Positions 47,829 to 63,317 of a stretch of DNA of 64,000 bases are shown here, in pieces. The stretch covers positions 1,860,001 to 1,924,000 of the forward strand of contig FSRV01000002.1 of the NCBI GenBank assembly GCA_900142905.1. The letters are read 5' to 3'. Each line of letters opens with the position of its first letter. Positions within the stretch are counted from its first letter, which is position 1. The notes under the pieces were generated by a model. The model had not been told where the DNA came from and did no database searches. It saw only the letters and a list, made by a program, of their open reading frames with translations. A program made the translations under genes and the position numbers. The stretch is from Burkholderia sp. GAS332 (GTDB lineage Bacteria > Pseudomonadota > Gammaproteobacteria > Burkholderiales > Burkholderiaceae).

Positions 47829-48683
47829 CTACCAGGAACTCGCGAAGGCGTGGACAAGCCGATTGAATGCCCCCGGCTTCGCGACGTTCATCCCATGCGA
47901 TGCACCGGCAATGGTTTGTTTGTCCGCGTAATCGATCCAATCCGCCAGCTTGTCAACGTTGTTGCGAAACATGCGAGGGCTCTTTTCGCCCTCGATCAGC
48001 AAGGTCCTGCACTGCACATCACGCGCTGCGTCACGTGAGTACGCCGGCAAAGGGTCACGCAACTGCTTCGGCAGCGTGGCGGCATTGTCGATCGCCATGG
48101 TGCGGAAACTGGCGGGACTCTTGCGCCAGAAGCCAGGCATGCTCACCGAGTCCACGAAAAGCTCCAGTCCGGCGTCAATCGCACCGCTTTCAATCAAATC
48201 CGCGACTTTGGCGCGAAGGACATTGGTCGCAGGTGGCAACGCGGCCTCCGGCATCCCATCGATCTGCAACGGGCCGCCCGGATCGGCCAGCGTCAGCGTT
48301 TTTACCAGCCGCGGATACTCGCGCGCCACGTGGAATGCAACGCACCCTCCCCGCGAGTGCCCCACCAGATGAACCGGCCCGAGGTTCATTGCCGCGATGA
48401 ACTCGGCGAGTTCCGCGACATGTGTCTTCCAGCCAAATTCTCCTTGAATGCACGCATCGGCAGCCGGCCAGTAGTGACTGAGGCTGACCGAAACGCAGAG
48501 GAAATGCTTCGACAGAAACTCGGTTTGACTGCCCCAATAGCGGTAATCGCAAAGCGATCCGTGCACGAAAACCAGCGGCTCTCCCGACCCGCTGATCACA
48601 TAGGGCACGCTGATGCCGGAGGGGACGGTGGCAAAGCACAACTCCGGGACTGCAAGTAGTGAAGGGTCGGTTCGCGCGTTCAT
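47829..48683 (-). CDS. Alpha/beta hydrolase
   Basis: The 284-residue protein has VFVHGSLCDYRYW, the nucleophile elbow GHSRGG, and a late His in AGASHGMNVAKP. It has no signal peptide. The substrate is unknown. AAGGAA lies before the ATG at 48683; an ATG seven codons upstream is less likely. It is divergent from the LysR gene at 48773, which probably controls it through the palindrome between them. Confidence 0.85.
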   Translation of the reverse strand: MNARTDPSLLAVPELCFATVPSGISVPYVISGSGEPLVFVHGSLCDYRYWGSQTEFLSKHFLCVSVSLSHYWPAADACIQGEFGWKTHVAELAEFIAAMNLGPVHLVGHSRGGCVAFHVAREYPRLVKTLTLADPGGPLQIDGMPEAALPPATNVLRAKVADLIESGAIDAGLELFVDSVSMPGFWRKSPASFRTMAIDNAATLPKQLRDPLPAYSRDAARDVQCRTLLIEGEKSPRMFRNNVDKLADWIDYADKQTIAGASHGMNVAKPGAFNRLVHAFASSW

Positions 48684-48741
48684 GGATGGGTTCCTTTCCA
48701 GCACTATGCCCGACGCAGCAATCTAAGGAAATCGCGTAATA

Positions 48742-48758
48742 TTGATGATATCTATCAA
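48742..48758. promoter_or_regulatory. LysR-type operator between the hydrolase and its regulator
   Basis: TTGATGATATCTATCAA has 5-bp palindromic arms (TTGAT/ATCAA) in the 89-base gap between two divergent genes, 15 bases before the LysR start codon. It fits the general LysR-box form and the usual place for autorepression with activation of the divergent gene. Confidence 0.6.
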
Positions 48759-48772
48759 CTTTTCTGATACCA

Positions 48773-49624
48773 ATGAAAGCACTGGATCTGGACGTTCTGA
48801 CCATGATCGTGGCCGTGGCCGACACGGGGAACATTAGTCGCGCGGCGGAAATCGTCCATCGCTCGCAATCGGCGGTGAGCATGCAGATCAAAACGCTCGA
48901 AACCGCGCTCGGCAAGCCGCTTTTCGTGCGCAAGCCGAGAAGCGTGATCCCGACACAAGACGGCGAGGTCCTGCTGACGTTCGCGCGGCGCATGCTCGCG
49001 CTGCGCGACGAAGCGTGGGCGGCGGTGGTCCGGCCTGACGTAACCGGCCGGGTCGTCATCGGTGTGCCCGACGACTACGCGTCGTCACTGCTACCGTCGA
49101 TCCTCAAGAAATTTTCCGCGACCTACCCGAAGGTCGAGATTCAGGTCGTCGGACTGCCGAGCGTGGCGCTTGCACCCATGGTCAAGGACGGATCGGTCGA
49201 CCTGGTCTGCGGGACGCGCGTCAAGGGCCTCTCGGGCGAGTTCATCCGGCACGAACCGATGGTCTGGGCCGCGGCGCCCAGCGCGCATGACATCTGGCGC
49301 GAGCGGCCGCTGCCCATTGCGGTGTTCATGCCGGGCAGCGTCGCCCGGGAAAACGCGATCCGCAGTCTGGAACAGGCGAAGATCACCTACCGGACCTCTT
49401 ACGAGAGCCCGAGCCTGTTGGGCCTTCTCAGCATGGTGGAAGCGGGACTCGCGGTGGCGCCGCTCGCGCAATGTGCGGTTCCCGCTCATCTGAGCTTGCT
49501 CGGCCATGCACAGGGCTTGCCCGAAATCGCCGCGCTGGAGTTGATCCTGGCGCGGAGCGCTAAATCGAAGCGGCCGCCATGTGACTTTCTCGCCGAAAAG
49601 ATCATGTCGGAACTGCGGCGTTAG
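48773..49624 (+). CDS. LysR-family transcriptional regulator
   Basis: The 283-residue protein has an N-terminal winged helix (LDVLTMIVAVADTGNISRAAE, then HRSQSAVSMQIKTLE) and a LysR-type sensor domain. Length is normal. It is divergent from an alpha/beta hydrolase gene with a palindrome between them. Its ligand is unknown. Confidence 0.88.
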   Translation: MKALDLDVLTMIVAVADTGNISRAAEIVHRSQSAVSMQIKTLETALGKPLFVRKPRSVIPTQDGEVLLTFARRMLALRDEAWAAVVRPDVTGRVVIGVPDDYASSLLPSILKKFSATYPKVEIQVVGLPSVALAPMVKDGSVDLVCGTRVKGLSGEFIRHEPMVWAAAPSAHDIWRERPLPIAVFMPGSVARENAIRSLEQAKITYRTSYESPSLLGLLSMVEAGLAVAPLAQCAVPAHLSLLGHAQGLPEIAALELILARSAKSKRPPCDFLAEKIMSELRR

Positions 49625-49938
49625 TTACACCTTGGCGGCGTTAAGTTGCCGCCGTCATGGCACGCCAGAAAAGTATCACCAGGTTTGATTGCGTCGTGCC
49701 GGGAGCGACGAGCCCGCCCAGTCAGGTTTTAATCGGTATTCGCCCGCATTGCTGAACGTCGCGTGGCGATGGAAGATCCGGATGGGTCGTATTTGACCCC
49801 AACGCTTCCGGACGAGTTGGCCCCGCCCGGATAGCACAAAATTATCAAGACCAAGCCGCAAGCTGCTGTTCATCAAAATAAGCCGAACGGCAATCTGCCT
49901 TTAGCATCAACGTTTTTCGACGGGAACGAGAGGCGCAC
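49625..49938. other. Intergenic stretch, no gene supported
   Basis: A GC-rich hairpin just after the LysR stop (about 49634-49653, TGGCGGCG paired with GCCGCCG) may end that transcript. The open frame on the minus strand in this gap has no ribosome binding site and no recognisable product. Confidence 0.5.
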
Positions 49939-51336
49939 ATGTCCACCCAAAAGGCAGCAGAGATCGCGGCGCGTCTCGACAGGCTACCGCCGTCCCGTAC
50001 CATCTGGTCGATGGTGATCCTGATATCGCTTGGCGGCGTATTCGAATTCTACGATCTCTTTTTCACCGGCTATGTCGCGCCCGGCATGGTTCAGTCCGGC
50101 TTGTTCAAACCGGAGTCCCTCGGCTTCTTCGCAGCCCTCCAGCCACTCGCCGTCGCCGGCTTTGGTACGTTCGTGTTCGCGACGTTCGCGGGGCTGTGGG
50201 TTGGCACACTGGTGCTCGGCTTTGTCGCCGACCGGTTTGGCCGACGCTTCATCTTCACCTGGTCGCTGATCTGGTACATGATCTGCACCGTCATCATGGC
50301 TTTCCAGACTTCAGGATTCGCGCTTGATATCTGGCGATTCGTCGCCGGCATCGGTATCGGTGTCGAACTGGTGACAATCGACACTTACATTTCTGAACTG
50401 ATCCCAAGCCAGGAGCGCGGCCGTGCTTACGCCGTGAACCAGTTCATCACCTTCGCGGTTGTGCCGGTGGTCGCGTTTCTCGCCTATGCGTTGAACGGAA
50501 CACGGCCCCTTGGCCTTGACTATTGGCGCGTTGTCATCCTGATCGGCTCGGTCGGCGCTGTGGTCGTCTGGTTTCTGCGCCGAAAGATTCCGGAAAGTCC
50601 GAGATGGCTGGCTCGTCACGGCCGCGTGGACGAGGCCGAGCGGATCATTGCAGACATCGAGCGTCGCGTGACGGCTGAAAAAAATATCGCGCTAGCACCA
50701 CCACAGCCGAGCGCGCCTGAAAAGGAGGGGCGTGGCACGCTGAAGGAGATTTTTTCCCGAAATTATCGGCGGCGGACGATCATCCTATCGATCTTCAATA
50801 TGGCCCAGGTCATCGGCTTCTATGGCTTCGCGGCCTGGGTGCCCACGCTGCTGATTCATCGGGGTATTCACGTCACCGCGAGCCTCGGCTACGCCTTTGT
50901 CATCGCGATCGCCAATCCCTTTGGTCCCTTGCTGGGCACCTTATTCGCGGACAAGATTGAACGCAAGACCCAGATTTGCGGCGGTCTGTTCACCATGGGT
51001 GTGGTCATCGCGATCTTTTCACAAGCCTCCAGTCCGTCGTTACTGATCGCGCTCGGCGTGATATTCACGCTTGCCGCCAACATCATGTCCTATGCGTACC
51101 ATGGTTACCAGGCGGAGCTCTACCCGACCCGGGTGCGGGCCCGCGCGATCGGCTTCGTCTATTCATGGAGCCGGATCGCGGCTGCCTTCGCCGGGCTGGC
51201 GATCGGCATCCTGCTGCACGGCTACGGTGTGCCGGGCGTGGCGGTCTTCATCGGCATGTCGATGGTGGTTGCGATCTGCATGATCCTGCTGGGTCCGTCT
51301 ACGAAAGGTCTGGCGCTCGAGACGATCAACCATTGA
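49939..51336 (+). CDS. MFS transporter, sugar-porter-like
   Basis: The 465-residue protein has twelve membrane helices and MFS motifs GFVADRFGRRFIFT, FVAGIGIGVELVTIDTYISE, RRKIPESPRWLARHGRVDEA and GYQAELYPTRVRARAIG. These place it with the sugar/organic acid (SP/AAHS-like) carriers. It has a central cytoplasmic loop of about 50 residues. The substrate is unknown. AGAGGCG is found just before the ATG. Confidence 0.87.
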   Translation: MSTQKAAEIAARLDRLPPSRTIWSMVILISLGGVFEFYDLFFTGYVAPGMVQSGLFKPESLGFFAALQPLAVAGFGTFVFATFAGLWVGTLVLGFVADRFGRRFIFTWSLIWYMICTVIMAFQTSGFALDIWRFVAGIGIGVELVTIDTYISELIPSQERGRAYAVNQFITFAVVPVVAFLAYALNGTRPLGLDYWRVVILIGSVGAVVVWFLRRKIPESPRWLARHGRVDEAERIIADIERRVTAEKNIALAPPQPSAPEKEGRGTLKEIFSRNYRRRTIILSIFNMAQVIGFYGFAAWVPTLLIHRGIHVTASLGYAFVIAIANPFGPLLGTLFADKIERKTQICGGLFTMGVVIAIFSQASSPSLLIALGVIFTLAANIMSYAYHGYQAELYPTRVRARAIGFVYSWSRIAAAFAGLAIGILLHGYGVPGVAVFIGMSMVVAICMILLGPSTKGLALETINH

Positions 51337-51492
51337 TTTTGCGTAGCTCCTTCATTGATCTTGCAAAGTTTGACGATATTGCGCACCTGAACCTGTCAGC
51401 GGAACCCACTGACGCCGCGTTATATCCATCAGTGTCGTGCGGGCGCGCGACACTGATGGAACCTACCTCGTCTCACACCTACAGGATCAGCG

Positions 51493-51933
51493 ATGAAAAT
51501 ACCGTTTCTTTCCATGGCAGTGGCGACCGGATTACTCGTTGCGACTGCTGGCTATGCGCAGGTCCCGGCCAGCGCGCCGGCCGGATCGACAGCCCTCTGC
51601 AAGGACGGCACGTCCTATTCGGGCGCCTCGAAAAAGGGCGCCTGCGCGGGTCATAAGGGTATCAAGACCTGGTACGGCGCATCGGGTGCCGCAGCAGGCG
51701 CTGCGAGCGCTCCCGCAGGTGCGGCCCCGGCTGTCGCTCCGGCCGCTGCGAGCAGCGCAAAACCGGCGGCAGCCGGTGGCGGCCCCGGCCAGGTCTGGGT
51801 TAATACGAGCACCAAGGTCTACCATTGCCCGACAGACAAGTACTACGGCAAGACGAAGAATGGTGCGTACATGACCGAGGCGGATGCAAAAGCAAAGGGC
51901 TTCCACGCCGATCACGGGAAAGCCTGCCAGTAA
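51493..51933 (+). CDS. Secreted DUF3761-like protein
   Basis: The 146-residue precursor has a signal peptide (to about residue 22, GYA), a DUF3761-type Cys/His segment (TALCKDGTSYSGASKKGACA), an Ala/Pro-rich linker and a conserved C-terminal part (VYHCPTDKYYGKTKNGAYMT) with two further cysteines. The function is unknown. The C-terminal segment occurs in many Burkholderia secreted proteins. A strong hairpin terminator follows. Confidence 0.8.
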   Translation: MKIPFLSMAVATGLLVATAGYAQVPASAPAGSTALCKDGTSYSGASKKGACAGHKGIKTWYGASGAAAGAASAPAGAAPAVAPAAASSAKPAAAGGGPGQVWVNTSTKVYHCPTDKYYGKTKNGAYMTEADAKAKGFHADHGKACQ

Positions 51934-52003: not shown

Positions 52004-52954
52004 TCAGCCGACTCTCGCGTAGTAAAGATTCTGCGGATGCTTCGCTTCGGCGAAAAAGAACCAGCGTTCCGCCACGAGGCCCGCGTATTGCACGAGACAC
52101 GCGGCAGCCAGCAAGCCGAGCGAGACGTCGATCGAATGCAAGCCTGCACCCAGCGCCATCAGCAAGACTGGCACGGCAAACGCGGCCACGAGGAAACCCC
52201 ATTTGACGCCCCGCAGCGTCCCCGCCGATTTGCCGTGAAAGAATTCACGCAGATTGAAAGCGCCGGCGGTAAAACCGCGTGAGACCTGTACGAGCTTCGG
52301 ATTCTTGATGCCGGTCGCGCTTTGCACGGTGGACTTCGGCCGCAAACGCGCATTGCGCATGAGCGACGCCGAGCGGCTGGCACAGCCCGCGAGTGTCAGC
52401 ACGCAGGCACAGACCGCCAACCCCGCCGTCAGCCCCGGCGCGAACCACGCGGTCAGCGCCGTCGCCAGCGTGAACCCGGACGCGCAGCCTAGCAGCACGA
52501 AGTTGACCAGCGTGAGCGGCGTGGCCCACTCCTGCAGAAAACGCAGGCATGCGTAGATCATCGCCGAGCAGACGAATAGCGCGGCGCTCGCCAGTACGCC
52601 GAGCGCGCCTATCGCGAGCGACCACGGCGAGCCGAACGCGTGCGCGACGCCATAGAAAAAAGCACAGGCGAGAAACGCCGGCAGGCAGAGACATTCGCGC
52701 GACAACCACGAGGTTCGCCACATTGCCACCGCACGCCATGCGCGCTCCGGATGCCCGAGATGGAAGAACGACGCGATCAGTCCGAGGCCGCCCAACACCA
52801 CCGACAAGCCCGCGCCGGTGACATAGAACGCATCGGTGGGCGCCGCGATCAGCCCCAGATGCGCAGCCGCTTCCACGCCGACCAGCGCGATCAGCAGCCC
52901 TTGCGCCGCGCCGCTTAAGGTAGTGAGAAAAACCACGGAGAAAGCAGGATTCAT
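52004..52954 (-). CDS. soeC: Membrane anchor subunit (DmsC/SoeC type) of a molybdenum oxidoreductase
   Basis: The 316-residue protein has about eight membrane helices and the DmsC-like start (FSVVFLTTLSGAAQGLLIAL) with LASFFHLGHPERAWRA. It would anchor the FeS and Mo subunits to the inner side of the membrane and pass electrons to quinone. It is the last of three genes (A-B-C order). The general family is DMSO-reductase anchor; the sulfite dehydrogenase assignment comes from the neighbouring sulfolactate genes and the lack of a Tat signal on the Mo subunit. Confidence 0.75.
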   Translation of the reverse strand: MNPAFSVVFLTTLSGAAQGLLIALVGVEAAAHLGLIAAPTDAFYVTGAGLSVVLGGLGLIASFFHLGHPERAWRAVAMWRTSWLSRECLCLPAFLACAFFYGVAHAFGSPWSLAIGALGVLASAALFVCSAMIYACLRFLQEWATPLTLVNFVLLGCASGFTLATALTAWFAPGLTAGLAVCACVLTLAGCASRSASLMRNARLRPKSTVQSATGIKNPKLVQVSRGFTAGAFNLREFFHGKSAGTLRGVKWGFLVAAFAVPVLLMALGAGLHSIDVSLGLLAAACLVQYAGLVAERWFFFAEAKHPQNLYYARVG

Positions 52955-52976
52955 CGTGCGGTCCTTTTAATGTCCT

Positions 52977-53723
52977 TTAGATGCGCGTCGCCATCGACGC
53001 CAGATGCAGTTCGCCGCGCTCGACTTGCGCGTCAAACGATGCCGGCGTATCCATCACTGCCCCCGTCGATTTGCACGAGCAGCCATCGCTGCCGCAGCCC
53101 GAGGCCGACGTGGTGACGCGCGGCAAATAATGATTCGCCGGTTTCGTGTTCCATTCAGGCATCAACTGATAGCCGCCACGCTCCTCGATCGCCTTCGACA
53201 CCACCGACTCCGGGTCATGGATATCGCCGAACAGGCGCGCGGAGGTCGGACACGCGAGCACGCAGGCCGGTTGCCGGTCGCGCTCGGAGAGGTTTTCATC
53301 ATGAATACGATCGACGCACAAGGTGCACTTGGTCATCTCCTTGCGCGCTTCATCGAGTTCGCGCGCGCCATAAGGGCAGGCCCACGCGCAATACTTGCAG
53401 CCGATGCACTTGTCGAAATCGACCAGCACGAGGCCGTCCTCCTTGCGCTTGTAGCTGGCGCCGGTTGGGCACACCGGCACGCACGGCGGGTCTTCGCAGT
53501 GCAGGCACGACTTCGGGAAATGGATCGTCTCGGCGTTCGGAAAACTGCCGGCCTCGAAGCTCTGCACGCGGTTGAAGAATGTGCCGGACGGATCGGCATC
53601 GTAGGGATTCAGGTCGGCGAGACTGCCCGATTCGCCCGACGTGTTCCACTCCTTGCAACTGGTCACGCAGGCCTGGCATCCCACGCATACGTTCAGGTCG
53701 ATCACCAATGCCATCTGAGTCAT
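52977..53723 (-). CDS. soeB: Four-cluster 4Fe-4S subunit (SoeB type)
   Basis: The 248-residue protein carries four cysteine clusters: CVGCQACVTSC, CLHCEDPPCVPVC, CIGCKYCAWAC and CTLC with a later CVLAC. This is the standard DmsB-like electron-transfer subunit. The C-terminus adds a Cys-rich GCGSDGCSCKS tail. The start at 53723 has AAGGAG before it. It links the Mo subunit gene upstream with the anchor gene 22 bases downstream. Confidence 0.82.
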   Translation of the reverse strand: MTQMALVIDLNVCVGCQACVTSCKEWNTSGESGSLADLNPYDADPSGTFFNRVQSFEAGSFPNAETIHFPKSCLHCEDPPCVPVCPTGASYKRKEDGLVLVDFDKCIGCKYCAWACPYGARELDEARKEMTKCTLCVDRIHDENLSERDRQPACVLACPTSARLFGDIHDPESVVSKAIEERGGYQLMPEWNTKPANHYLPRVTTSASGCGSDGCSCKSTGAVMDTPASFDAQVERGELHLASMATRI

Positions 53724-53822
53724 CAAAGGCTCCTTGCTGCTTTATTGCTTTGTTGCGTTATCCGCGTGCTTCTTTACTGTTTAGTCGCGCTTGCGTCGTG
53801 TCCTGGCCGCGTGTGCCTTGCG

Positions 53823-56744
53823 TCACTTGCGCCCAGCCGCGCCACGCAGCCGCGCCGCGAACTCGCCGCGCCCCGCGAAGTAGGTCTGCACGATCCGCGA
53901 GATCACGCCGTTCGAGCCCGGCAGCGCCTGCATCGCGTCGAACTGGGGCAACGTGTGCCGCGCGTCCGCTTCCGCCGGATAGATGCGCACCCGTACGTCG
54001 TACCACGCGGCCTGTCCGGTGATCGGGTCGGAGTTCGACACGCGTCCTGCCGCATCATCCGCGGCGGGCAGTTCGTCCGTGATCAAGTGATTGAGCAGAA
54101 AGCCGCGCTGCGATTCGTTCGCGCCCGCGCCGAGGTTCCATGCACCCGCAGCCTTGCCGATCGCGTTCCACGTCCAGACCGTCCCCGGCTCGACCGTCTC
54201 GCTGAAGCGCGCCATGCAGCGCACGCGGCCCCATTGCGATTCGGCATAGATCCAGCTGCCGTCGGCAATGCCGTTCTCCGCCGCCATCAGCGGATTCATG
54301 TAGAGATAGTTCTCGCCGTGAATCTGCCGCAGCCACGCGTTCTGCGAGTCCCATGAGTGATACATCGCCATCGGCCGTTGCGTCACGGCGGCGAGCGGAA
54401 AGCGTGCGAGATCCGTGGAATGGCTTTCCAGCGGCGCATAAAAGAACGGCAGCGGATCGAAGTACTTCTCGACCCGCGCGCGCAAGTGCTCCGGCGGTTG
54501 CCTGCCGCTCCTGCGGCCCTGCGCGGCAAGCCTGAACTTTTGCATGACGTCGGAGTAAAGCTGGATCAGGATCGGTTCGCTGAATTTGCGAAAGCCGTTC
54601 TTCACCGCCCAGTCGAGATACGGCCCGTTGACGTTGCGCATGTACTGGAGCGTCTCGGGCAGCCGGTAATGGAACACGCAATTGTTCTTCGCGTACTGTT
54701 CCCACTGCCGCGGATTCGGCTCGCCGACCAGCGCCTTGTCGCCGTCCTTGCCGCGCCAGCCGATCAGAAAACCCACGCCCGAATCGGGCGCCGTCGTGTG
54801 ATTGATGATGAAGTCGGGATAGTCGCGAAAGCGCCGCGTGCCTTCGGCGGTCGTGAACGCGGGAAACTTCAGCCGCGACGCCAGTTCGATCAGCACTTCC
54901 TGGAAGGGCTTGCACTCGCCCGTCGGCGGCACGACCGGCACGCGCACCGAATCCACCGGACCGTCGAATTCAGAGATCGGCCGGTCGAGCATCGACATCG
55001 CGTCGTGCCGCTCGAGATAGGTGGTGTCCGGCAGGATCAGATCGGCGAACGCCGTCATCTCCGACTGGAACGCATCGCACACCACGAGAAACGGAATCTT
55101 GTACTCGCCGTTCGCATGCTTGTCGGCGAGCATCTCACGCACCTTCATCGTATTCATCGACGAATTCCACGCCATGTTGGCCATGAAAATCATCAAGGTA
55201 TCGATGGGATACGGATCGCCGCGCCACGCGTTGGTGATAACGCTATGCATCAGGCCATGCACGGCAAGCGGATATTCCCAGGAGAACGCCTTGTCGATCC
55301 GTACCGGACCGCCCTGTTCGTCGATGAACAGGTCTTCGGGGGCGGCGGGCCAGCCGAGCGGCCCGGTCGCGAGCGGCGTGTTCGGCTTGACGGCGTCGGG
55401 GCTGTTCGGCGGTTTGGCCGACGGCGGCACCGCGCGCGGAAACGGCGACTTATGACGAAAGCCGCCGGGGCGGTCAATCGTGCCGAGCAGCGACATCAGC
55501 ACCGCAAGCGCGCGGATCGACTGGAAGCCGTTGGAATGCGCGGCCAGTCCGCGCATCGCATGAAAGGCCACCGGATTGCCGGTCACCGTGTCGTGCGTTT
55601 TGCCCCAGGCATCGGTCCATGGGATCGGCAGCGTGATCCGGTGGTTGCGGCTGGTCTCGATCATTTCGCCCGCGAGGCGGCGAATCGTGTCCGCCGCGAT
55701 CCCGGTGATCTCAGCGGCCCACTCGGGCGTGCAATCGGCCACGCGTTCGCGCAGCAACGCGAACGACGGCGTGACCGGCGTGCCGTCAGCGAGCGTATAG
55801 CGGCCGTCCAGCGCGGGCGTCACGCCCTCTGCATGGTGCGGCACGGCACACGCGGCGGCGGTGTCCCACCAGAGATGATTCTGCGGAAACAGCGGATTGC
55901 CGACTGGCCGCTCCGGGTCACGCACGAACAGGCCGAAGTTTTCGCTGGCTTCGTCGAGGTCGACCAGTTCCGCCGCATTCGTATAGCGCTGCACGAACTC
56001 GTGGTCCCAGGCGTCGGCGGCAATCAATTCGTGCAGGAATGCCATGAACAGCGCGCCGTCGGTGCCTGGCTTGATCGGCACCCACTCGTCGGCAATCGCG
56101 GCATAGCCGGTGCGGATCGGATTGATGGCGATAAAGCGGCCACCCGCGCGCTTGAACTTCGAAATGGCGATCTTAAGCGGATTCGAATGGTGATCTTCCG
56201 CCGTGCCGATCATGAAGAAGAGTTTGGCGCTGTCCAGATCGGGGCCGCCGAATTCCCAGAACGAGCCGCCGATCGTATAGATCATGCCGGCCGCCATGTT
56301 GGCCGAGCAGAAGCCGCCATGGGCCGCGTAATTAGGCGTGCCGAACTGTTTGGCAAAGAGGCCCGTGAGCGCCTGCATCTGGTCGCGGCCAGTGAACAGG
56401 GCGAATTTCTTTGGATCCGTGGCGCGAATCGTGGCAAGGCGCTTCTCGAGCACGTCGAACGCGACTTCCCACGACACCGGCTCGAACTGCGCACTGCCCC
56501 GCTCGGCGCCCGCCTTGCGCATCAATGGCTGGGTCAGGCGCGCGGGCGAGTACTGCTTCATGATGCCGGAGGCACCCTTGGCGCAGATCACCCCCTGATT
56601 CAGCGGATGCTCAGGGTTGCCGTCGATGTAGCGTACCTCGCCTTCACGCAAATGCACGCGAATGCCGCAGCGACAGGCGCACATGTAACAGGTGGTCGTC
56701 TTGACCTCCAGCCGTTCGTTCTGCGTGCGGGCGTGGTGTTCCAT
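53823..56744 (-). CDS. soeA: Molybdopterin oxidoreductase, probable cytoplasmic sulfite dehydrogenase large subunit (SoeA type)
   Basis: The 973-residue protein starts with a 4Fe-4S site (Cys19, Cys22, Cys26, Cys54) and continues with molybdopterin-guanine-dinucleotide-binding domains (FALFTGRDQMQALTG, MIGTAEDHHSNPLKI, and a C-terminal domain near residue 790). It has no Tat signal, so it acts in the cytoplasm, as SoeABC does. SoeABC oxidises sulfite to sulfate and feeds electrons to quinone. The suyAB genes 3-4 kb away produce sulfite, which makes this role likely; polysulfide/DMSO-type reductases are the alternative. GGAGA precedes the ATG. Confidence 0.72.
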   Translation of the reverse strand: MEHHARTQNERLEVKTTTCYMCACRCGIRVHLREGEVRYIDGNPEHPLNQGVICAKGASGIMKQYSPARLTQPLMRKAGAERGSAQFEPVSWEVAFDVLEKRLATIRATDPKKFALFTGRDQMQALTGLFAKQFGTPNYAAHGGFCSANMAAGMIYTIGGSFWEFGGPDLDSAKLFFMIGTAEDHHSNPLKIAISKFKRAGGRFIAINPIRTGYAAIADEWVPIKPGTDGALFMAFLHELIAADAWDHEFVQRYTNAAELVDLDEASENFGLFVRDPERPVGNPLFPQNHLWWDTAAACAVPHHAEGVTPALDGRYTLADGTPVTPSFALLRERVADCTPEWAAEITGIAADTIRRLAGEMIETSRNHRITLPIPWTDAWGKTHDTVTGNPVAFHAMRGLAAHSNGFQSIRALAVLMSLLGTIDRPGGFRHKSPFPRAVPPSAKPPNSPDAVKPNTPLATGPLGWPAAPEDLFIDEQGGPVRIDKAFSWEYPLAVHGLMHSVITNAWRGDPYPIDTLMIFMANMAWNSSMNTMKVREMLADKHANGEYKIPFLVVCDAFQSEMTAFADLILPDTTYLERHDAMSMLDRPISEFDGPVDSVRVPVVPPTGECKPFQEVLIELASRLKFPAFTTAEGTRRFRDYPDFIINHTTAPDSGVGFLIGWRGKDGDKALVGEPNPRQWEQYAKNNCVFHYRLPETLQYMRNVNGPYLDWAVKNGFRKFSEPILIQLYSDVMQKFRLAAQGRRSGRQPPEHLRARVEKYFDPLPFFYAPLESHSTDLARFPLAAVTQRPMAMYHSWDSQNAWLRQIHGENYLYMNPLMAAENGIADGSWIYAESQWGRVRCMARFSETVEPGTVWTWNAIGKAAGAWNLGAGANESQRGFLLNHLITDELPAADDAAGRVSNSDPITGQAAWYDVRVRIYPAEADARHTLPQFDAMQALPGSNGVISRIVQTYFAGRGEFAARLRGAAGRK

Positions 56745-56962
56745 GCTGGGGATCTCCGTCGCTGCTCCGGCTGTGTCGAAGCGGGGTGGGTTCGATATCG
56801 ACCATCCTATCCGCCGCCGGCCCACAAGGGAAATCGCGATTTACGAGAGAAACTATCCGCCATGCTGATGGTTTCAATTGGCCTTCAGTGAGCGCATTTC
56901 CGTCGGGCTGTCCTGCATGCCCATTCGGCAGCCGATTTCAGCATGATCGGTCAGCCATTCCT

Positions 56963-57958
56963 TCAGCTTCCCCGCAATTGAGCAAGCAGCCCATCCGGAA
57001 TCTCGACGCCCTCTTGTTGCGCCGTGTCCGCAAGCCGCTCTCTTCGGTGGCCGGGAAGCCGGACGTCGTCGTCCGCCAGCATCATGTCGATCAACGCTTC
57101 AACGCGGGAAAGATAGGTTTCGTCACCCGCCAGCGCGCCTGGGTCGATGGCCCAGAACAGATGGCCGATGCGCGAACGCTCGCCCTCTTCGGTCAGGAAC
57201 GAACCCGCTTCGTAGCCGAAGTTCGCGCCGGTCAACGCGGCTGCCAGCAACTCGACGATCAGCGCGAGCATCGCCCCCTTGGCCCCGCCGAACGGCAGCA
57301 TCATGCCGTCGAGGGCGGCACGGGCGTCGGTGGTCGGCGCACCGTCGCGGGTGGTGGCCCAGCCATCGGGAATCGGTTTGCCGTCGCGCGCGGCAATCGC
57401 GATCTTGCCGCGCGCGATCTGCGAGAGCGCGAGGTCGATCACGAGCGGCTCGCCGTTGCGCCGCGGGAACACGGCGGCAATCGGGTTGGTGCCGAACAAG
57501 GCACGGCGGCCACCCCAGGCGGGCATCGCCGCGGGCGAATTGCTGAAGGCGAGCGCAACCAGGCCCGCCGCGCCGAGCGCCGCCAGATGCGCCGCGCCCA
57601 CCCCGAAATGGTGGCTGCGCTTCACGCCCGCCACGGCGCTGCCGAATTGCCGTGCCCGGTCGATCAAGGTCGACACCGCGAGATCGCAGGCGGGATAAGC
57701 CAGCCCGTCCGCACCGTCGACCAGTACCGCCGCGCCACGATCCGCCACGATTGCCGGCTGCGCCACGGGATCGACGCGGCCATTGCGCAACTGCGCACAA
57801 TACATCGGCAACCGCGCTACCCCGTGCGACGACAATCCGCGCAGGTCGGCGTAGACGAGCGAGCGCGCGGTCGATTCGGCGGTAGCCTCCAGCGCGCCCG
57901 CCAGGCGCAGGGTGTCGATTGCAAGCGCGGTCAGCGCGTCGGGTGACAGTCGGGGCAT
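56963..57958 (-). CDS. comC: Ldh2-family dehydrogenase, probable (R)-sulfolactate dehydrogenase (ComC type)
   Basis: The 331-residue protein is a member of the malate/L-lactate dehydrogenase (Ldh2) family, with DLRGLSSHGVARLP near residue 38, VKRSHHFGVGA (likely catalytic His) and ALFGTNPIAAVFP. ComC of this family interconverts (R)-3-sulfolactate and 3-sulfopyruvate with NAD(P). The gene lies between the suyAB/dctA genes and the sulfite dehydrogenase genes, which supports that substrate. Other Ldh2 members act on malate, ureidoglycolate or 2-oxo acids, so the substrate is inference. Confidence 0.75.
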   Translation of the reverse strand: MPRLSPDALTALAIDTLRLAGALEATAESTARSLVYADLRGLSSHGVARLPMYCAQLRNGRVDPVAQPAIVADRGAAVLVDGADGLAYPACDLAVSTLIDRARQFGSAVAGVKRSHHFGVGAAHLAALGAAGLVALAFSNSPAAMPAWGGRRALFGTNPIAAVFPRRNGEPLVIDLALSQIARGKIAIAARDGKPIPDGWATTRDGAPTTDARAALDGMMLPFGGAKGAMLALIVELLAAALTGANFGYEAGSFLTEEGERSRIGHLFWAIDPGALAGDETYLSRVEALIDMMLADDDVRLPGHRRERLADTAQQEGVEIPDGLLAQLRGS

Positions 57959-58004
57959 CGAATCGTCCTTGCGTGTGGATTGGCGTGTGGGTTTGCGTGT
58001 GCTG

Positions 58005-58103
58005 TCAGTCCGAGAGCGCGGCGGCGGCCCGTTGCGCGACGAGCGAACTCACCCGCTCGTTGGATGGGACCGTCAGGCCGGCCGTGTGGGGCGTGAGGAT
58101 CAT
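58005..58103 (-). pseudogene. slcC: Fossil C-terminus of a D-2-hydroxyacid dehydrogenase, probable slcC remnant
   Basis: The 32-codon frame reads M-ILTPHTAGLTVPSNERV and ends with a TGA at 58005. The segment LTPHTAG with its catalytic His and the following VxSNxRV helix is the C-terminal end of the phosphoglycerate-dehydrogenase-like D-2-hydroxyacid dehydrogenase family, to which SlcC ((S)-sulfolactate dehydrogenase) belongs. The NAD-binding and most catalytic parts are missing. Its first codon is fused at the dctA stop (ATGA), so the 5' part of the gene seems to have been replaced by dctA. It is too short to be an enzyme. Confidence 0.7.
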
Positions 58104-59446
58104 TTAGCCGTCTTTTCCAACAGCGGATGAGCCGCGGATTGACGTGTTTCTTCGAGTCCGGGGCGAACCGCCGTCGGCTGCTGCCCTTGAGCTTGCGCCT
58201 CGCGCGGCGCGGCGAGGAATTCGCGCGCGGCACGCGCATCGAATGCGCCTTCCCAACGCGCGACCACCAGCGTCGCCACCACATTGCCGATCATATTGGT
58301 GAGTGCGCGAACCTCGTTGAGCACCCGGTCGACGCCGAGAATCAGGGTGATACCCGCCACCGGAATGATGTTGTGCGTGGACAGCGTCGCGGTCAACGCG
58401 ACCAGCGCCGCACCGGCCACGCCCGCACCGCCCTTCGAGGTCAGCATCAGGATGGCCAGCAGCCCGAGCTGCTGCATCAGCGACAGATGTGTGTTGGTCG
58501 CCTGTGCGATGAAGAGCGAGGTCATCGTGAGGTAGATCGCCGCGCCGTCGAGATTGAACGAATAGCCGGTGGGCAGCACGAGCCCGACGATCGCCTTCGG
58601 GCAACCCATGCGCTCGAGCTTCTCCATGAGGCGCGGCAACACGGACTCCGTGGTGGAGGTGCCGAGCACGATCAGCAGTTCTTCGCGGAAGTACCTGAGC
58701 AGCGGCCAGAGCCCCACGCCCGCCCAGCGTGCCGCCGCACCGAGTACGATCGCCACGAACAGGATGCTGGTGATGTAGAAGCACAGAATCAGCAGACCGA
58801 GTTGCTGCAAGGTGCCGATGCCGTATTTGCCGACCGTGAAGGCGATCGCGCCAAATGCGCCGAGCGGTGCGAGCCGCATGATCATCTCGACGATGCGCAT
58901 CAGCGTGTCGCCGAACTGCTCGATGCCGCGCATGAGCAGCCGGCTGCGCTGCGACATGATCGATAACGCAATGCCGAACAGCACGGAGAACAACAGCACC
59001 TGCAGCAGATCGCCGCGCGCAAACGCGCCCACCACCGAATTCGGCACGATCATGTCGAAGAAACTCGACGACGCCGCGTGTGCGTCCGCCACGTAGTGCG
59101 ATACGGCGTGCGCATCGAGCGTGGCGGGATCGATGTTCAGCCCCGCGCCCGGATGCAGCACGTTCGCCACGACGAGCCCGATCACGAGCGCGATGGTGGT
59201 CACCACCTCGAAGTAGAGCAGCGTCTTGAGCCCGACGCGGCCCACCTGCTTCAGGCTCTCCATCCGCGCAATGCCCACCGAGACCGTACAGAAGATCACC
59301 AGTGTGATCAGCATCTTGATGAGTTTAATGAAGGTGTCGCCGAGCGGTTTCATTTCGACGCCGAACGAAGGCGCGAAGTAACCGACGAGAACCCCGGCTG
59401 CAAGTCCGATCAGGACCTGCACGTAGAGATGTTTGAGCACGCGCAA
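58100..59446 (-). CDS. dctA: DctA-type dicarboxylate carrier, candidate sulfolactate importer
   Basis: The 448-residue protein belongs to the DAACS family, with about eight membrane helices plus two hairpins. Family motifs are GTSTTESVLPRLMEKLERMG, the binding loop VLPTGYSFNLDGAAIYLTM and a late LGVDRVLNEVRALTNMIGN. DctA normally brings in succinate, fumarate or malate with protons or sodium. Here it lies between suyB and the ComC-type gene, so it may carry sulfolactate, a close analogue of malate. The C-terminal tail is longer and more polar than usual. The name is for the family, not a proven substrate. Confidence 0.85.
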   Translation of the reverse strand: MRVLKHLYVQVLIGLAAGVLVGYFAPSFGVEMKPLGDTFIKLIKMLITLVIFCTVSVGIARMESLKQVGRVGLKTLLYFEVVTTIALVIGLVVANVLHPGAGLNIDPATLDAHAVSHYVADAHAASSSFFDMIVPNSVVGAFARGDLLQVLLFSVLFGIALSIMSQRSRLLMRGIEQFGDTLMRIVEMIMRLAPLGAFGAIAFTVGKYGIGTLQQLGLLILCFYITSILFVAIVLGAAARWAGVGLWPLLRYFREELLIVLGTSTTESVLPRLMEKLERMGCPKAIVGLVLPTGYSFNLDGAAIYLTMTSLFIAQATNTHLSLMQQLGLLAILMLTSKGGAGVAGAALVALTATLSTHNIIPVAGITLILGVDRVLNEVRALTNMIGNVVATLVVARWEGAFDARAAREFLAAPREAQAQGQQPTAVRPGLEETRQSAAHPLLEKTAK

Positions 59447-59612
59447 GATGGTGTCTCCTCCACTCGCTGCCGCCAGATGTCGAGCCGGCGCCGTTGCGGC
59501 ATGGCTTGCCGGGCACGGGTGCCGTCGCGGCTGTTCTCCGTGCCGGCACGCGCCGGAATGTTGAGGTCCGCTCCGGCCTTATCAGGCTCCCGGAGCAGCC
59601 ATGCCGCCAGCT

Positions 59613-60788
59613 TCAGGCGCTTTCGAACAGACGGGTCAGCACGAACTCGCGATGACCGAGCGCTTCCGCCGACGTGAAACGGCCGTTGATCGTGGCCATC
59701 ATGCATTCGAGCAGTTTGTCGCCGCTCTGGTCGAGATTCTGCTCGCGCTGCAGGATGCCGGTCACATCGACATCGATATGTTCGCCCATGGTGCGAACCG
59801 TACGCGGATTCGCGCAGATCTTGATGACCGGCACGATCGGATTGCCGATCACGTTGCCCTGCCCCGTCGGGAAAAAGTGAACCACGAAGCCGGACGCCGC
59901 GCACAACGTCACCATTTCCGCCGCCGCCGACGACGAGTCCATGAACCACAGGCCCGAGTGCGTCGGCTCCTCGGCCTTGTCGAGCACACCGTCCACCATG
60001 CACTTCTTGCCGATCTTCTGGATATTGCCGAGCGCCTTCTCTTCAATGGTCGTCAGGCCGCCCGCGATATTGCCCTTGGTCGGCTGCGACTCCGACAAGT
60101 CGTCCGTTTTCCAGCGGTTGATCATGTCCTGATAGCGATCGAACATGAACTGAAAACGCTCGCGCACGCCGTCGTTGGCGCAGCGCGCGGCGACAATCTG
60201 TTCGCCGCCGGTCAGCTCCGACGTCTCGCCGAAGACGAGCGTGGTGCCGAGGCCATACAGCTTGTCAAAAGCATTGCCGACCGTCGGGTTCGCGCCGCAG
60301 CCCGAGGTGGTATCCGACTCGCCGCATTTGGTGGAGACCCACAGCTCCGAGATCGGGCACGCCACGCGATCGAGCGATGTGGCGTACTGCACCATTTCCT
60401 TCGCTGCCTTCGAAGCACGCATGATCGTGTCATGGTCGCCGTGCAGTTCGATGCCGAAGCCCATCACCGGCTTGCCGGTTTTCGCAATGCCGTCGACAAC
60501 GCGCTTGGTCCAGCCTTCCTCGATGCCGATCACGACCACGGCCGCGACGTTCGGGTTGCTGCCCGCGCCGATCAGCGTGCGGAAATGCAGATCGAGGTCG
60601 GCGCCGAACTGCAGCCGCCCGTACGGGTGCGGCAGCGCCATCGTGCCCTTGATATTGTTTTCGACGGCCTGCGCGGCGGCGTTCGACAGATCGTCGACCG
60701 GCAGAATGATCACATGGTTGCGCACGCCAACGCGGCCATTGTCGCGACGATAGCCGCGGAAAGTCGTATCCAGGTCAATCACGCTCAT
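59613..60788 (-). CDS. suyB: (2R)-3-sulfolactate sulfo-lyase, large subunit
   Basis: The 391-residue protein is the UxaA/altronate-dehydratase-like large subunit of sulfolactate sulfo-lyase, which splits 3-sulfolactate into pyruvate and sulfite. Visible parts are [19 protein letters not shown] near the start, [17 protein letters not shown] (iron-binding Cys region), [20 protein letters not shown] and [19 protein letters not shown]. The length equals that of known SuyB. It follows suyA by about 80 bases. The start at 60788 has a GAGAGA motif before it. Altronate and galactarate dehydratases are relatives, but the split A and B genes and neighbours favour SuyB. Confidence 0.85.
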
Positions 60789-60871
60789 GGTGTGTCTCTC
60801 GTTCGGTTCGGATTCGGTTCGGTTTGATGCGTTCGCAACAGGACAAGCGGCGGCTGGAAACAAGCCCCCGC

Positions 60872-61216
60872 TTACCAGCGCTTCGTCTTGATGTTGTGCA
60901 CGTGAGCGTGCTCGCCGGCGCTGATCGGCGCGACCACCTTGCCGATATCCACGCCGTACTTGAACACCGTGTCGCCGACCGCCATGTCTTTGAGCGCCAC
61001 CTTGTGACCGATCGGAATGTCCTGTTTGGCGGGGAACGTCACGATCTCATCGTCGTCCATGATCCACGCATTGAGTTGCGTGCCCGCCTTGATGCCCTCG
61101 ACGACCGCCACACCGACCGTGTCTTTCGCCTCGTGCAGCACGATATGAATCGTCTTGCGTTCAGGCGTCGCGCCCGCTGCCGCAGTGCCGTTGATATCTG
61201 CCGTGGGATTGCTCAT
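60872..61216 (-). CDS. suyA: (2R)-3-sulfolactate sulfo-lyase, small subunit
   Basis: The 114-residue protein has an SAF-like fold (residues 22-112) with [37 protein letters not shown] and a C-terminal [14 protein letters not shown], matching the small subunits of SuyAB and the N-terminal domain of altronate dehydratase. It is needed with SuyB for the sulfo-lyase reaction in the cytoplasm. GGAGACG precedes the ATG. It is the first gene of the catabolic operon and has a consensus sigma-70 promoter upstream. Confidence 0.85.
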
Positions 61217-61291
61217 TCGCGTCTCCGTTCGTGTGTTGAATGCGGTGTGGGTCCCGCCGGGGCAGCGAGTCAACCGCGCTGCTGTGAATCG

Positions 61292-61320
61292 ATATTAGGC
61301 GGCAGGTTTATGGATGTCAA
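61292..61320 (-). promoter_or_regulatory. Sigma-70 promoter of suyAB
   Basis: On the minus strand TTGACA (61320 to 61315), 17 bases and TAATAT (61297 to 61292) form an almost ideal sigma-70 promoter. It would give a leader of roughly 70 bases before suyA. Confidence 0.75.
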
Positions 61321-61338
61321 CTAGGTCATATATATGTC

Positions 61339-61347
61339 TTAGATGAG
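61339..61347. promoter_or_regulatory. Half-copy of the GntR operator upstream of the suyAB promoter
   Basis: TTAGATGAG repeats one arm of the dyad at 61457-61489 and lies about 19 bases upstream of the suyAB -35 element. The position would fit a regulator that acts on suyAB from upstream. Confidence 0.45.
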
Positions 61348-61456
61348 TGTTTTCCGGGACCGCCCGTGCTTTGCGGCTGGCGAGTTCTGTCCATGCGGAT
61401 GCGTGCGGCGTTTCCACACGCCAGGTAAAAACCCGTGTCGCGACTAGCCTACAAAA

Positions 61457-61489
61457 ACTATCTCATCTAGATGGGTTAGATGAGATAGT
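61457..61489. promoter_or_regulatory. GntR operator-like perfect inverted repeat
   Basis: ACTATCTCATCT (61457-61468) and AGATGAGATAGT (61478-61489) are perfect 12-bp reverse complements with nine bases between. The dyad lies 70 bases before the GntR start codon and just upstream of a TAAAAT (61494-61499) that may be its -10 element. Autorepression is likely. Confidence 0.7.
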
Positions 61490-61558
61490 CGGCTAAAATC
61501 AGGGCGGGGTTAACCTTCGCGAGCGGCGTCGCGCGGCTCGCGCATTTCAGGGGTTGTC

Positions 61559-62317
61559 ATGAGCACGCTCGCCATCAATCCGCCCGCGCTGGGCGGCACG
61601 CGGTACAAGGAGGTCAAGAGCGCGATTCTGGCCGCGCTCTCGGCGGGCGAATGGAAAGGCGGCGAATGCATTCCTTCGGAGAAGCGGCTGGCCGAACGGT
61701 TCGGCGTGTCCATCGGCACGCTGCGTAAAGCGATCGACGAACTCTGCGCCGAGAACATCCTGATCCGTCATCAGGGTCTCGGCACCTTCGTGTCCATGCA
61801 TCAGCGCGACCGGCATTTTTTCCGGTTTTTTCGCATTGTCCGGCGCGATGGCGACAAGGCCTATCCCGTCGTCACGTTGATCGATTTCAAAAAGGCGCGT
61901 GCATCCCGCGAGGTCGCGGCCATGCTCAACATCGAAACCGGCGCGCGCGTGTTCCAGTTCGTCAACGGCCTGGCGCTGCATGGCAAAACCGTTCTGATCG
62001 AGCACATCACGGTGCCGGAAGCCCATTTTCCGGGCCTCACTGAAACAAAGCTCCGTAACCGGCCCAACACGCTCTACAACTTTTACCAGGACGTGTTCGG
62101 CATCAACGTGGTCGAGACCGATGAACGCGTGAGCGTGGCATCGGCCAACGAGCTGGAAAGCACCCAGTTAGACGTGATCGTCGGCACACCGTTGCTCGAA
62201 ATCCGGCGGATCGCCTACTCGTATCACCGCAGCGCGGTCGAACTACGCGTTTCGCGGCTCAATACCGAGGAGTACGAGTACATCGGCACCCACGCGGGGC
62301 GCGAAGCAGAACGGTAG
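61559..62317 (+). CDS. suyR: GntR-family regulator with UTRA domain, probable sulfolactate regulator
   Basis: The 252-residue protein has a GntR winged helix (CIPSEKRLAERFGVSIGTLR, about residues 39-58) and a UTRA ligand-sensing domain typical of the HutC subfamily (ARVFQFVNGLALHGKTVLIE and a C-terminal YSYHRSAVELRVSRLNTEEY). It is divergent from suyAB, and an operator-like dyad lies in the shared control region. The ligand is probably sulfolactate or a downstream compound, by position only. Confidence 0.82.
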   Translation: MSTLAINPPALGGTRYKEVKSAILAALSAGEWKGGECIPSEKRLAERFGVSIGTLRKAIDELCAENILIRHQGLGTFVSMHQRDRHFFRFFRIVRRDGDKAYPVVTLIDFKKARASREVAAMLNIETGARVFQFVNGLALHGKTVLIEHITVPEAHFPGLTETKLRNRPNTLYNFYQDVFGINVVETDERVSVASANELESTQLDVIVGTPLLEIRRIAYSYHRSAVELRVSRLNTEEYEYIGTHAGREAER

Positions 62318-62384
62318 GCCGGGTGGGTAGAAGCTCCGCGGTCGGCCGCAAGCGGCGGACGGGCGGCTTGCTTGCGTGCGCTGC

Positions 62385-63317
62385 CTAGATCGGGGTCAAC
62401 ACCGCTTCGCCAGCGAAATGCCGCTTCGCGTTGGCCAGAAAGTTGTCGACCGAGGCCGCGATCGCTTCCGGCGAGCGGCCGCCCACATGCGGAGTCAGCA
62501 CCACATTGCGCAGCTTGAGCAAGGCCCCGGGCGGATGCGGCTCGCCCTCGTAGACGTCGAGGCCCGCACCGGCAATCGTTCCCGCGATAAGCGCCCGCGC
62601 CAACGCGGCGGTATCCACGACACTGCCGCGCGAGACGTTGACCACGAAACCGTTGGGCCCCAGCGCCTCCAACACCTTGGCGTCGATCAGATGATGCGTG
62701 CTCGCGCCGCCCGGCGTTGCCACCACCAGAAAATCGCACCACTGCGCGAGCCCCTGCACGCTGTCGAAATAGCGCAGCGACGCATCTTCACGCGGTTTGC
62801 GGTTGTGATACCCGATTTCCATATCGAACCCGGCGCCACGCCGCGCGACCTTCGCGCCGATATTGCCGAGCCCGACGATCCCGAGCCGCTTGCCGGACAC
62901 GTTCGGGCGCATCGGCAAGGTGTCGCGCCAGACGCCCTCGCGGGTGGCCTGGTCGAGTTGCGGCACGTCGCGCACCACCGCGAGCAGTAAGGCGAACGCG
63001 TGATCGGCCACGCAATGATCGTTGGTGCCCGCGCCGCTGACGAGCACGATGCCGCGCGAGCGGGCATGGTCGACGGCGAGGTTTTCATAGCCGGCGCCGA
63101 GCACGCTGACAAACTCGAGCTGCGGCATCCGGTCGATGTCAGCGGCTGTCAGCCCGGTCGTACCGTTGGTCAGCACGGCGCGGATCGCCTCGCCGTGCGC
63201 GGCGATCGCGGCGGCCCGCTGGGTGGCATCGGGTGCATAGACGACGTCGAAAGCGGCCTCGACACTGGCGCGGCTTGCGTCCTTCAAGGGGATCAGAACC
63301 AGCAGGGATGACTTCAT
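62385..63317 (-). CDS. D-2-hydroxyacid dehydrogenase, hydroxypyruvate/glyoxylate-reductase type
   Basis: The 310-residue protein is complete: NAD(P) motif GLGNIGAKVA (near residue 150), catalytic Arg in NVSRGSVVD, Glu in DVYEGEPH and His in LTPHVGG. It belongs to the GhrB-like subgroup, whereas the relic at 58005 has the LTPHTAG ending of another subgroup. It converges on the GntR gene 67 bases away. It may reduce glyoxylate, hydroxypyruvate or sulfopyruvate. By position it could supply the (S)-sulfolactate dehydrogenase step lost with slcC, but this is only a suggestion. Confidence 0.85.
   Translation of the reverse strand: MKSSLLVLIPLKDASRASVEAAFDVVYAPDATQRAAAIAAHGEAIRAVLTNGTTGLTAADIDRMPQLEFVSVLGAGYENLAVDHARSRGIVLVSGAGTNDHCVADHAFALLLAVVRDVPQLDQATREGVWRDTLPMRPNVSGKRLGIVGLGNIGAKVARRGAGFDMEIGYHNRKPREDASLRYFDSVQGLAQWCDFLVVATPGGASTHHLIDAKVLEALGPNGFVVNVSRGSVVDTAALARALIAGTIAGAGLDVYEGEPHPPGALLKLRNVVLTPHVGGRSPEAIAASVDNFLANAKRHFAGEAVLTPI

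Follow-up and report, generated by a model that had tools for sequence, protein, structure and literature searches.

Positions 52004-63317 of a 64,000-nucleotide stretch of Burkholderia sp. GAS332 DNA (contig FSRV01000002.1, positions 1,860,001 to 1,924,000 of the forward strand; the whole stretch is called the window) very likely carry a predicted sulfolactate (SL) catabolic unit, lying between a resident 2-hydroxyacid dehydrogenase gene (2HADH) and a resident soeABC operon and trimmed from a larger island. The genome has 10.4 Mb in 3 contigs, and the named loci closest to the window belong to Paraburkholderia. The order on the minus strand is 2HADH, suyA, suyB, dctA, ldh2, soeA, soeB and soeC, while a gntR/UTRA gene, encoded on the plus strand, separates 2HADH from suyA. 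Of these genes, gntR-suyA-suyB-dctA-ldh2 (about 56,891-62,384) make up the separable unit. All nine genes that a preliminary description had claimed here were found open and at the stated positions, eight with the expected Pfam family, suyA being the exception.

In the proposed pathway, SL, which resembles malate but is a sulfonate, would be imported by a DctA-family symporter that has adapted to it, and SuyAB would cleave (R)-SL to pyruvate and sulfite. Homology and context suggest that SoeABC would then oxidise sulfite to sulfate on the cytoplasmic side and deliver the electrons to quinone. The GntR regulator may control the unit via two boxes at the suyA and gntR promoters. In the larger island, slcC would have supplied the partner that allows SlcC and ComC to convert (S)-SL to (R)-SL. 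The core of the unit is ordinary; what sets it apart is its carrier, its trimmed state and the apparent role of its full relatives. Its features are:

59613-60788, minus strand: suyB, predicted large subunit of (R)-sulfolactate sulfo-lyase, 391 aa (Pfam GD_AH; SuyB clade, 100/99)
60872-61216 (ATG) or 61273 (TTG), minus strand: suyA, predicted small subunit (open reading frame; weak galactarate dehydratase model match; locus co-occurrence)
58100-59446, minus strand: DctA-family symporter, predicted sulfolactate carrier (Pfam SDF; DctA models; tree; substrate-site residues)
57984-58103, minus strand: slcC remnant, C-terminal part (identity to SlcC of locus L040)
56963-57958, minus strand: ldh2, Ldh2 family dehydrogenase, ComC-like by context (Pfam Ldh_2)
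61559-62317, plus strand: divergent GntR/UTRA regulator (Pfam; locus co-occurrence)
61463-61483: GntR box 1, predicted operator, TCATCTA-N7-TAGATGA (0 mismatches)
61326-61346: GntR box 2, predicted (1 mismatch), just upstream of the suyA promoter
61292-61320, minus strand: suyA promoter-like site, TTGACA-17-TAATAT (sequence motif)
61418-61421: junction at which an approximately 8.9-kb module of locus L178, with succinate dehydrogenase (SDH)-like, fumarase and ATP-binding cassette (ABC) importer genes, is missing (alignment to L178)

SuyAB and its predicted regulation

SuyB relatives were drawn from the best 120 of 8000 scored, the closest named ones being from Burkholderiales. The best 80 named loci (83-100% identity) were used for locus counts, which rest on identity and coverage thresholds and in which contig ends shorten some loci. 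A SuyA relative was found at the same locus as SuyB in all 80, GntR in 69 and Ldh2 in 68, indicating that the grouping of these genes is not due to chance. The adjacent suyA and suyB genes encode separate small and large subunits. The suyA product matched no Pfam family and only weakly the N-terminal part of a galactarate dehydratase model; its start is more likely the ATG at 61216 than the TTG at 61273, which sits close behind the -10 box.

A SuyB tree of 24 rows, including 11 of the 80 named loci, placed the window protein and 16 others in a clade supported 100/99. This clade contained SuyB from C. pinatubonensis HN-2 (hpsN and hpsO adjoining), Paracoccus versutus (sulfate exporter and sulfite oxidase genes nearby) and S. 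mexicanum (slcC- and comC-like genes adjoining). E. coli UxaA and GarD, three paralogues from the strain's own genome and two haloarchaeal proteins fell outside, the nearest outside row being a 43% paralogue (95/89, long branch); long-branch warnings mainly concerned rows outside the clade. The SuyAB identity proposed in the preliminary description was thus borne out, and its question of whether SuyB falls inside the altronate/galactarate dehydratases was answered by the tree in favour of SuyAB. Strong homology therefore predicts that SuyAB cleaves (R)-SL to the two products named above. A sugar acid as the substrate of the UxaA-type pair, with neighbours serving C4-dicarboxylates and not sulfonates, is very improbable: many relatives are named UxaA family hydrolase or D-galactarate dehydratase and the carrier passes a generic C4-dicarboxylate model, but the SuyB tree speaks against it, as do other clusters linking suyAB to hpsN/hpsO, a sulfate exporter, sulfite oxidase and TauE. 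A UxaA-family paralogue 43% identical to SuyB is located at G000:C2:3101126-3102256 of the strain's own genome.

The P. versutus locus (L134) shares the GntR-suyA-suyB order with the window; genes for a sulfate exporter and for sulfite oxidase lie near it, whereas the window has SoeABC and no exporter in the block. Paracoccus suyAB was reportedly described together with a sulfate exporter by Rein et al. (2005), going by the title. According to the available text of a 2026 review, SuyAB was identified in C. pinatubonensis JMP134 (PMC12890257). SuyB of the 2,3-dihydroxypropane-1-sulfonate cluster hpsN-hpsO-suyAB of Cupriavidus pinatubonensis (PMC12890257) is 87% identical to that of the window, whose block, unlike this cluster, contains no hps genes, TctC or transhydrogenase.

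Two copies of the GntR-type box lie between suyA and gntR, the second just ahead of the suyA promoter-like site, and they are the only sites with one mismatch or fewer in the whole genome. Allowing up to 3 mismatches, the window held six matches, three of them in the suyA/gntR intergenic stretch, compared with an expected 0.57; none of the six was near soeA. At the same threshold the box was present upstream of suyA in 39 of the 80 loci, compared with 0.3 in base shuffles. It belongs to the clade of the window, since 37 of these loci lie in L035-L075 and 2 in L076-L114. A HutC-type operator (GTNTANAC) was rejected, being found in 1 of 45 intergenic stretches.

The resident site and soeABC

The genomic site was mapped using fifteen 20-kb regions from genus genomes and 12 earlier loci. 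The empty order 2HADH-soeABC was found in seven mapped regions (L172-L175, L183-L185). Full islands were present in L177, L178, L040 and L041, and in L044 but without slcC; L179, L036 and L037 had the window-like arrangement, and further decayed islands were seen in L181, L180, L039 and L046. L182 has 2HADH without soeABC. Genome G388 carries the island on another contig (L176), its 2HADH-soeABC site (L175) being empty. Alignment of the window with the seven empty sites showed that homology ends at the 2HADH stop codon (about 62366 in two) and restarts at about 56890, 73 bp past ldh2, indicating that soeA keeps its own upstream region. The preliminary description had counted soeABC and 2HADH as parts of a self-contained island; both are resident genes, adjacent to each other in relatives without the unit, and membership of soeABC in the separable unit was rejected on the evidence of the empty sites and of the separate upstream region that soeABC keeps. 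The resident neighbours are:

53823-56744 (or from 56825), minus strand: soeA, molybdopterin subunit of a predicted sulfite dehydrogenase (Pfam Molybdopterin; relatives; context)
52977-53726, minus strand: soeB, iron-sulfur subunit (Pfam Fer4)
52004-52954, minus strand: soeC, DmsC-type membrane anchor (Pfam DmsC)
56849-56875: inverted repeat upstream of soeA, single genome copy (genome pattern search)
62385-63317, minus strand: 2HADH, 2-hydroxyacid dehydrogenase, not SlcC (Pfam 2HADH; relatives)

Among the 30 best 2HADH loci, soeA followed 2HADH within 1.5 kb in 18, gntR was at that place in 7 (window included) and neither in 5. One of the 18 soeA-adjacent loci, L159, also has a 28-residue gntR scar. 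L171, from the same genome, has this scar (gntR residues 225-252, at L171:8348-8431) between 2HADH and soeA; the genome lacks the island, and the scar is a vestige of loss.

A concatenated soeABC tree was built from 21 loci with near-complete soeABC (12 with the island and 9 without; one plasmid-borne, L187; L176-L178, L180, L182, L035, L039 and L046 not included). It placed the window beside L040 (100/99). Island labels changed state 6 times on this tree, at least 4 of them forced, and the labels are not significantly clustered, as 142 of 500 label shuffles gave values as low. A simple single-insertion history was rejected on these changes, which fit a history of repeated losses, perhaps with regain. 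An insertion marked by a tRNA or by repeats was also rejected: the window contained no tRNA, and no direct repeat of at least 16 nt was found within either 701-base flank stretch. A 7.2-kb repeat scan returned short imperfect matches, one of them the pair of GntR boxes. The GC content of the unit genes is 0.61-0.70, that of the window 0.625.

The soe genes are ordered A-B-C; SoeC is a DmsC/NrfD-type anchor with 8 hydrophobic stretches, and no RR/twin-arginine motif was found near the SoeA start. The anchor type and the missing motif fit cytoplasmic SoeABC as described in the available text of PMC8076601. Judged by such descriptions, the three-subunit order, the anchor and the lack of an export signal on the catalytic subunit are shared with SoeABC of Aquifex, Allochromatium and Ruegeria (PMC8076601, PMC6335251). 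SoeA relatives of about 53% identity were found in clusters with xsc, a tripartite tricarboxylate transporter (TTT) and a CoA-ligase-like pair in both Azospirillum plasmid regions examined, and in Indioceanicola in a similar sulfoacetate-type set without listed xsc. Immediately ahead of soeABC in L188, L210 and L211 are clusters of the sulfoacetate type (TTT carrier, aldehyde dehydrogenase, CoA-ligase-like pair, Pta-like); those on the two Azospirillum plasmids include xsc. The name SoeA is carried by 7 of the 120 SoeA relatives listed. No second close SoeA was found in the genome, the next best matches being 30-32% identical over the N-terminal part.

It is quite unlikely that SoeABC has another function, with sulfite leaving the cell or being processed by a different enzyme. 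The mixed names of the SoeA relatives would allow it, as would the 18 of 30 best 2HADH loci that have soeABC without adjoining suyAB and the inverted repeat upstream of soeA (GAAACCATC-N9-GATAGTTTC), which differs from the GntR box. This repeat occurred once in the genome and 0 times in the control, and was recognisable upstream of soeA in empty-site relatives. Another function is hard to reconcile with the position of soeABC beside xsc in Azospirillum and in the Indioceanicola cluster, or with the anchor type and absent twin-arginine motif. The preliminary description expected the set to allow growth on sulfolactate with no other sulfur-specific gene, which may be an overstatement: the block contains no sulfate or sulfite exporter gene, unlike the Paracoccus and Methylobacterium clusters, which do hold exporter genes; three PF03601 genes are present elsewhere in the genome. 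Sulfite oxidation by SoeABC, the sink put forward in the preliminary description, is supported as the probable one by the sulfonate-cluster context of its relatives.

Beyond soeC, in the interval to nrdJ, window positions 47829-51933 hold an alpha/beta-hydrolase-like open reading frame, a LysR gene, an MFS gene and a small open reading frame. The genes nrdJ and soeC directly adjoin each other in several relatives, and this segment looks like a separate insertion.

The DctA-family carrier and the loss of slcC

In the route published for Chromohalobacter salexigens and Paracoccus wurundjeri, the dehydrogenases SlcC and ComC act as a racemase ahead of SuyAB, according to the available text (PMC12421959). 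SuyAB and a ComC-type Ldh2 are shared with the window, and relatives have canonical SlcC at the same site; the window differs in having an slcC scar, a DctA-type carrier and soeABC next door. The scar directly follows the dctA stop, between dctA and ldh2, and retains the last 32 codons, 87.5% identical to SlcC of Paraburkholderia domus (L040). Compared with L178 (the same P. domus locus, a sister lineage), 828 bp of slcC are gone. In L045 it is a piece of the 5' end that survives, which suggests that slcC decayed on more than one occasion. No SlcC was found at E <= 1e-80 in the whole genome, the best match being 37% identical. Canonical SlcC was present in 49 of the 80 named loci and Ldh2 without it in 22. 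It is SerA-like, with PGDH as its best NCBIfam match, and Chromohalobacter SlcC is placed in or beside the SERA clade in the text available (PMC6303947). The slcC remnant, the two boxes and the separability of soeABC and 2HADH were absent from the preliminary description.

We considered it unlikely that the resident 2HADH took over the role of SlcC, allowing both SL enantiomers to be used. The gene adjoins gntR, belongs to the right superfamily and lies beside the unit in several slcC-less relatives. However, its product is only 26-36% identical to canonical SlcC, and L181 has lost 2HADH while keeping suyAB. A close 2HADH homologue (best E <= 1e-100) was found in 118 of 144 genus genomes, being as frequent in those without SuyB (85/104) as in those with SuyB (33/40; SuyB scored at E <= 1e-150), whereas canonical SlcC (E <= 1e-80) was present in 17/40 and 5/104, respectively. 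SlcC is therefore tied to SuyB and 2HADH is not. With neither orthology nor coupling to suyB, 2HADH was rejected as SlcC; the "further hydroxyacid dehydrogenase" that the preliminary description had listed in the block is not the known (S)-sulfolactate dehydrogenase. Use of both enantiomers without SlcC is doubtful. Given the loss of slcC, and unless some other dehydrogenase stands in for SlcC, the main substrate of the strain should be (R)-SL, or else sulfopyruvate that the ComC-like Ldh2 reduces.

A possible though less favoured explanation is that L-cysteate or sulfopyruvate serves as the physiological substrate: sulfopyruvate would come from an aminotransferase encoded elsewhere, Ldh2/ComC would reduce it to (R)-SL and SuyAB would cleave the product. 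Once slcC is gone, there is a need for Ldh2 only if another source supplies sulfopyruvate, and Ldh2 without canonical SlcC recurs in the 22 loci above. Cysteate is similar to aspartate, which some members of the carrier family transport. Cysteate dissimilation is also said to proceed via SL, going by the title of Rein et al. (2005). Against this, the block contains no aminotransferase gene, and the carrier lacks the Asp of GltP in transmembrane helix 8 (TM8).

Returning to SL as the substrate, a DctA homologue (at least 60% identity) was found in 37 of the 80 named loci and TctC in 30, with both in none and neither in 13. SL uptake in published clusters is by the TTT system SlcHFG (PMC5812351, available text). 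Compared with SlcHFG of Roseovarius nubinhibens and Chromohalobacter (PMC5812351), which plays the corresponding part in clusters of this kind, the window block has an SLC1/DctA-family symporter and no TTT gene. The preliminary description had called a DctA-type carrier in place of TctABC unusual; the carrier is present and unusual relative to SlcHFG, but it is general in this clade. The protein scored 593.7 with model NF002461 (cut-off 513) and 564.2 with NF009587, just under its cut-off of 570. In a DctA tree whose SL-linked rows were 17 of the 37 DctA loci, the window, L136, L176 and L189 (the own-genome L130, with one in-frame stop, was left out), 20 SL-linked rows formed a clade supported 100/99. 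Inclusion of Methylobacterium gave 21 rows supported 99/94, with a long-branch warning for L189; another warning concerned the second DctA lineage with the outside rows. The SL-linked clade stood apart from E. coli DctA, own-genome paralogues and the second DctA lineage.

The SL-linked carriers did not match the substrate-site residues of the C4-dicarboxylate carriers compared at three positions. The TM8 site, which we take to be the position of GltPh Asp394, was Asn in 21/21 SL rows and 0/21 others (Ser 16, Asp 3, Gly 1, Ala 1). The TM7 position was Ala in 20 SL rows and Ser in 1, versus Thr 18, Ser 2 and Phe 1, so that the SL carrier reads NLDGA where the C4-dicarboxylate carriers read NLDGT. 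The HP2 position was Ala in all 21 SL rows, versus Ser 9, Thr 8, Pro 2 and Ala 2. The TM8 Arg was retained in 21/21 SL rows and 20/21 others. This DctA subclade, with its own substrate-site residues, probably carries sulfolactate. Among the papers that our literature search listed, none linked sulfolactate with DctA or dicarboxylate symporters. A second DctA lineage (clade 100/99) adjoins SDH/fumarase genes in L054, L058, L063, L065, L068, L071 and L072 (e.g. L071:16531-18243). It is a candidate 3-sulfopropionate (3-SP) carrier, in several loci beside a TauE-type gene.

The larger island and a proposed 3-sulfopropionate route

Window positions 61660-61422 aligned with the gntR side of L178 (95.8%) and 61417-61200 with its suyA side (86.7%); in L178 these are separated by 8,938 bp. 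Encoded in the extra stretch are the iron-sulfur, membrane and flavoprotein subunits of an SDH-like complex, a fumarase of two subunits, a LysR protein and an ABC importer whose binding protein is of the NMT1 type and whose ATPase is of the nitrate/taurine type. fumB was present in 6/6 loci checked, and fumA and sdhA occurred together in 20 of the 80 named loci. The strain of the window seems to lack this module, since the best fumB match in its genome is 30%. Full islands are spread over several branches of the soeABC tree, which makes deletion the simplest way to account for the 8.9-kb difference. The unit looks like a trimmed form of a larger island that once held slcC and the SDH-fumarase-ABC module. 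A Methylobacterium oryzae plasmid (L189) carries suyA-suyB-dctA-slcC-ldh-gntR and SDH/fumarase genes like the full Paraburkholderia island; it differs from the window in its SorA-like molybdopterin oxidase, TauE, sulfate exporter and thiamine pyrophosphate (TPP) enzyme genes, with no soeABC in the 17-kb stretch.

We lean towards the hypothesis that the ancestral full island was a sulfonate copy of the succinate-fumarate-malate segment. The SDH-like complex would convert 3-SP to sulfoacrylate, the fumarase-like hydratase would form sulfolactate and SuyAB would cleave it. Uptake would rely on the island's own sulfonate-type ABC importer or the second DctA lineage, and on the DctA subclade with a site retuned for SL. 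P. domus and relatives appear to keep such an island complete, the Methylobacterium plasmid has a counterpart of it, and the window would be a relic after loss of the module and slcC. Candidate 3-SP genes (SDH-like and two-subunit fumarase genes near suyAB) are located at L178:2956-11435 and L189:1-6451 and in L079, L093 and L099, most of these loci also having a sulfonate-type ABC importer or binding protein. Bacterial 3-SP degradation is described as unreported, except for a thesis on Roseovarius nubinhibens proposing a route via sulfoacrylate and sulfolactate, in the available text of a 2024 paper (PMC11489063). Our literature search, with little full-text and subscription coverage, found no genes for 3-SP breakdown.

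Several points weigh against the overall interpretation of a trimmed sulfolactate unit. All functions were assigned from homology and gene context, with strain relatives and their context standing in for biochemically proven SuyB, SlcC and SoeA sequences. Ldh2 scored 213 bits with the sulfolactate dehydrogenase model NF040650 (cut-off 500), and its best PDB match was a delta1-piperideine-2-carboxylate reductase (199 bits) ahead of an archaeal sulfolactate dehydrogenase (180). "ComC" is thus a contextual name, given the sub-cut-off score and a top PDB match to another reductase; of the ComC family assignment in the preliminary description, membership of the Pfam Ldh_2 family stands. The genome contained 9 boxes with up to 2 mismatches, as did a reversed-pattern control, so the weaker sites are background. 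SoeA relatives bear the names SoeA, formate dehydrogenase and molybdopterin oxidoreductase, and on a P. graminis plasmid no sulfur gene was among the listed neighbours of the SoeA relative. Finally, deletion as the polarity of the 8.9-kb difference is less firm than for slcC.

Collectively, the comparison describes a catabolic island worn down at one genomic site, with full, trimmed, scar and empty forms. The resident, probable sulfite-oxidase operon next door may explain why this site suits a sulfite-releasing pathway. The DctA subclade, probably for sulfolactate, gives three substrate-site positions. Sulfolactate and 3-SP are end products of the sulfonate metabolism of other microbes; the comparison points to candidate genes for 3-SP breakdown, a route that the 2024 paper credits only to a thesis.

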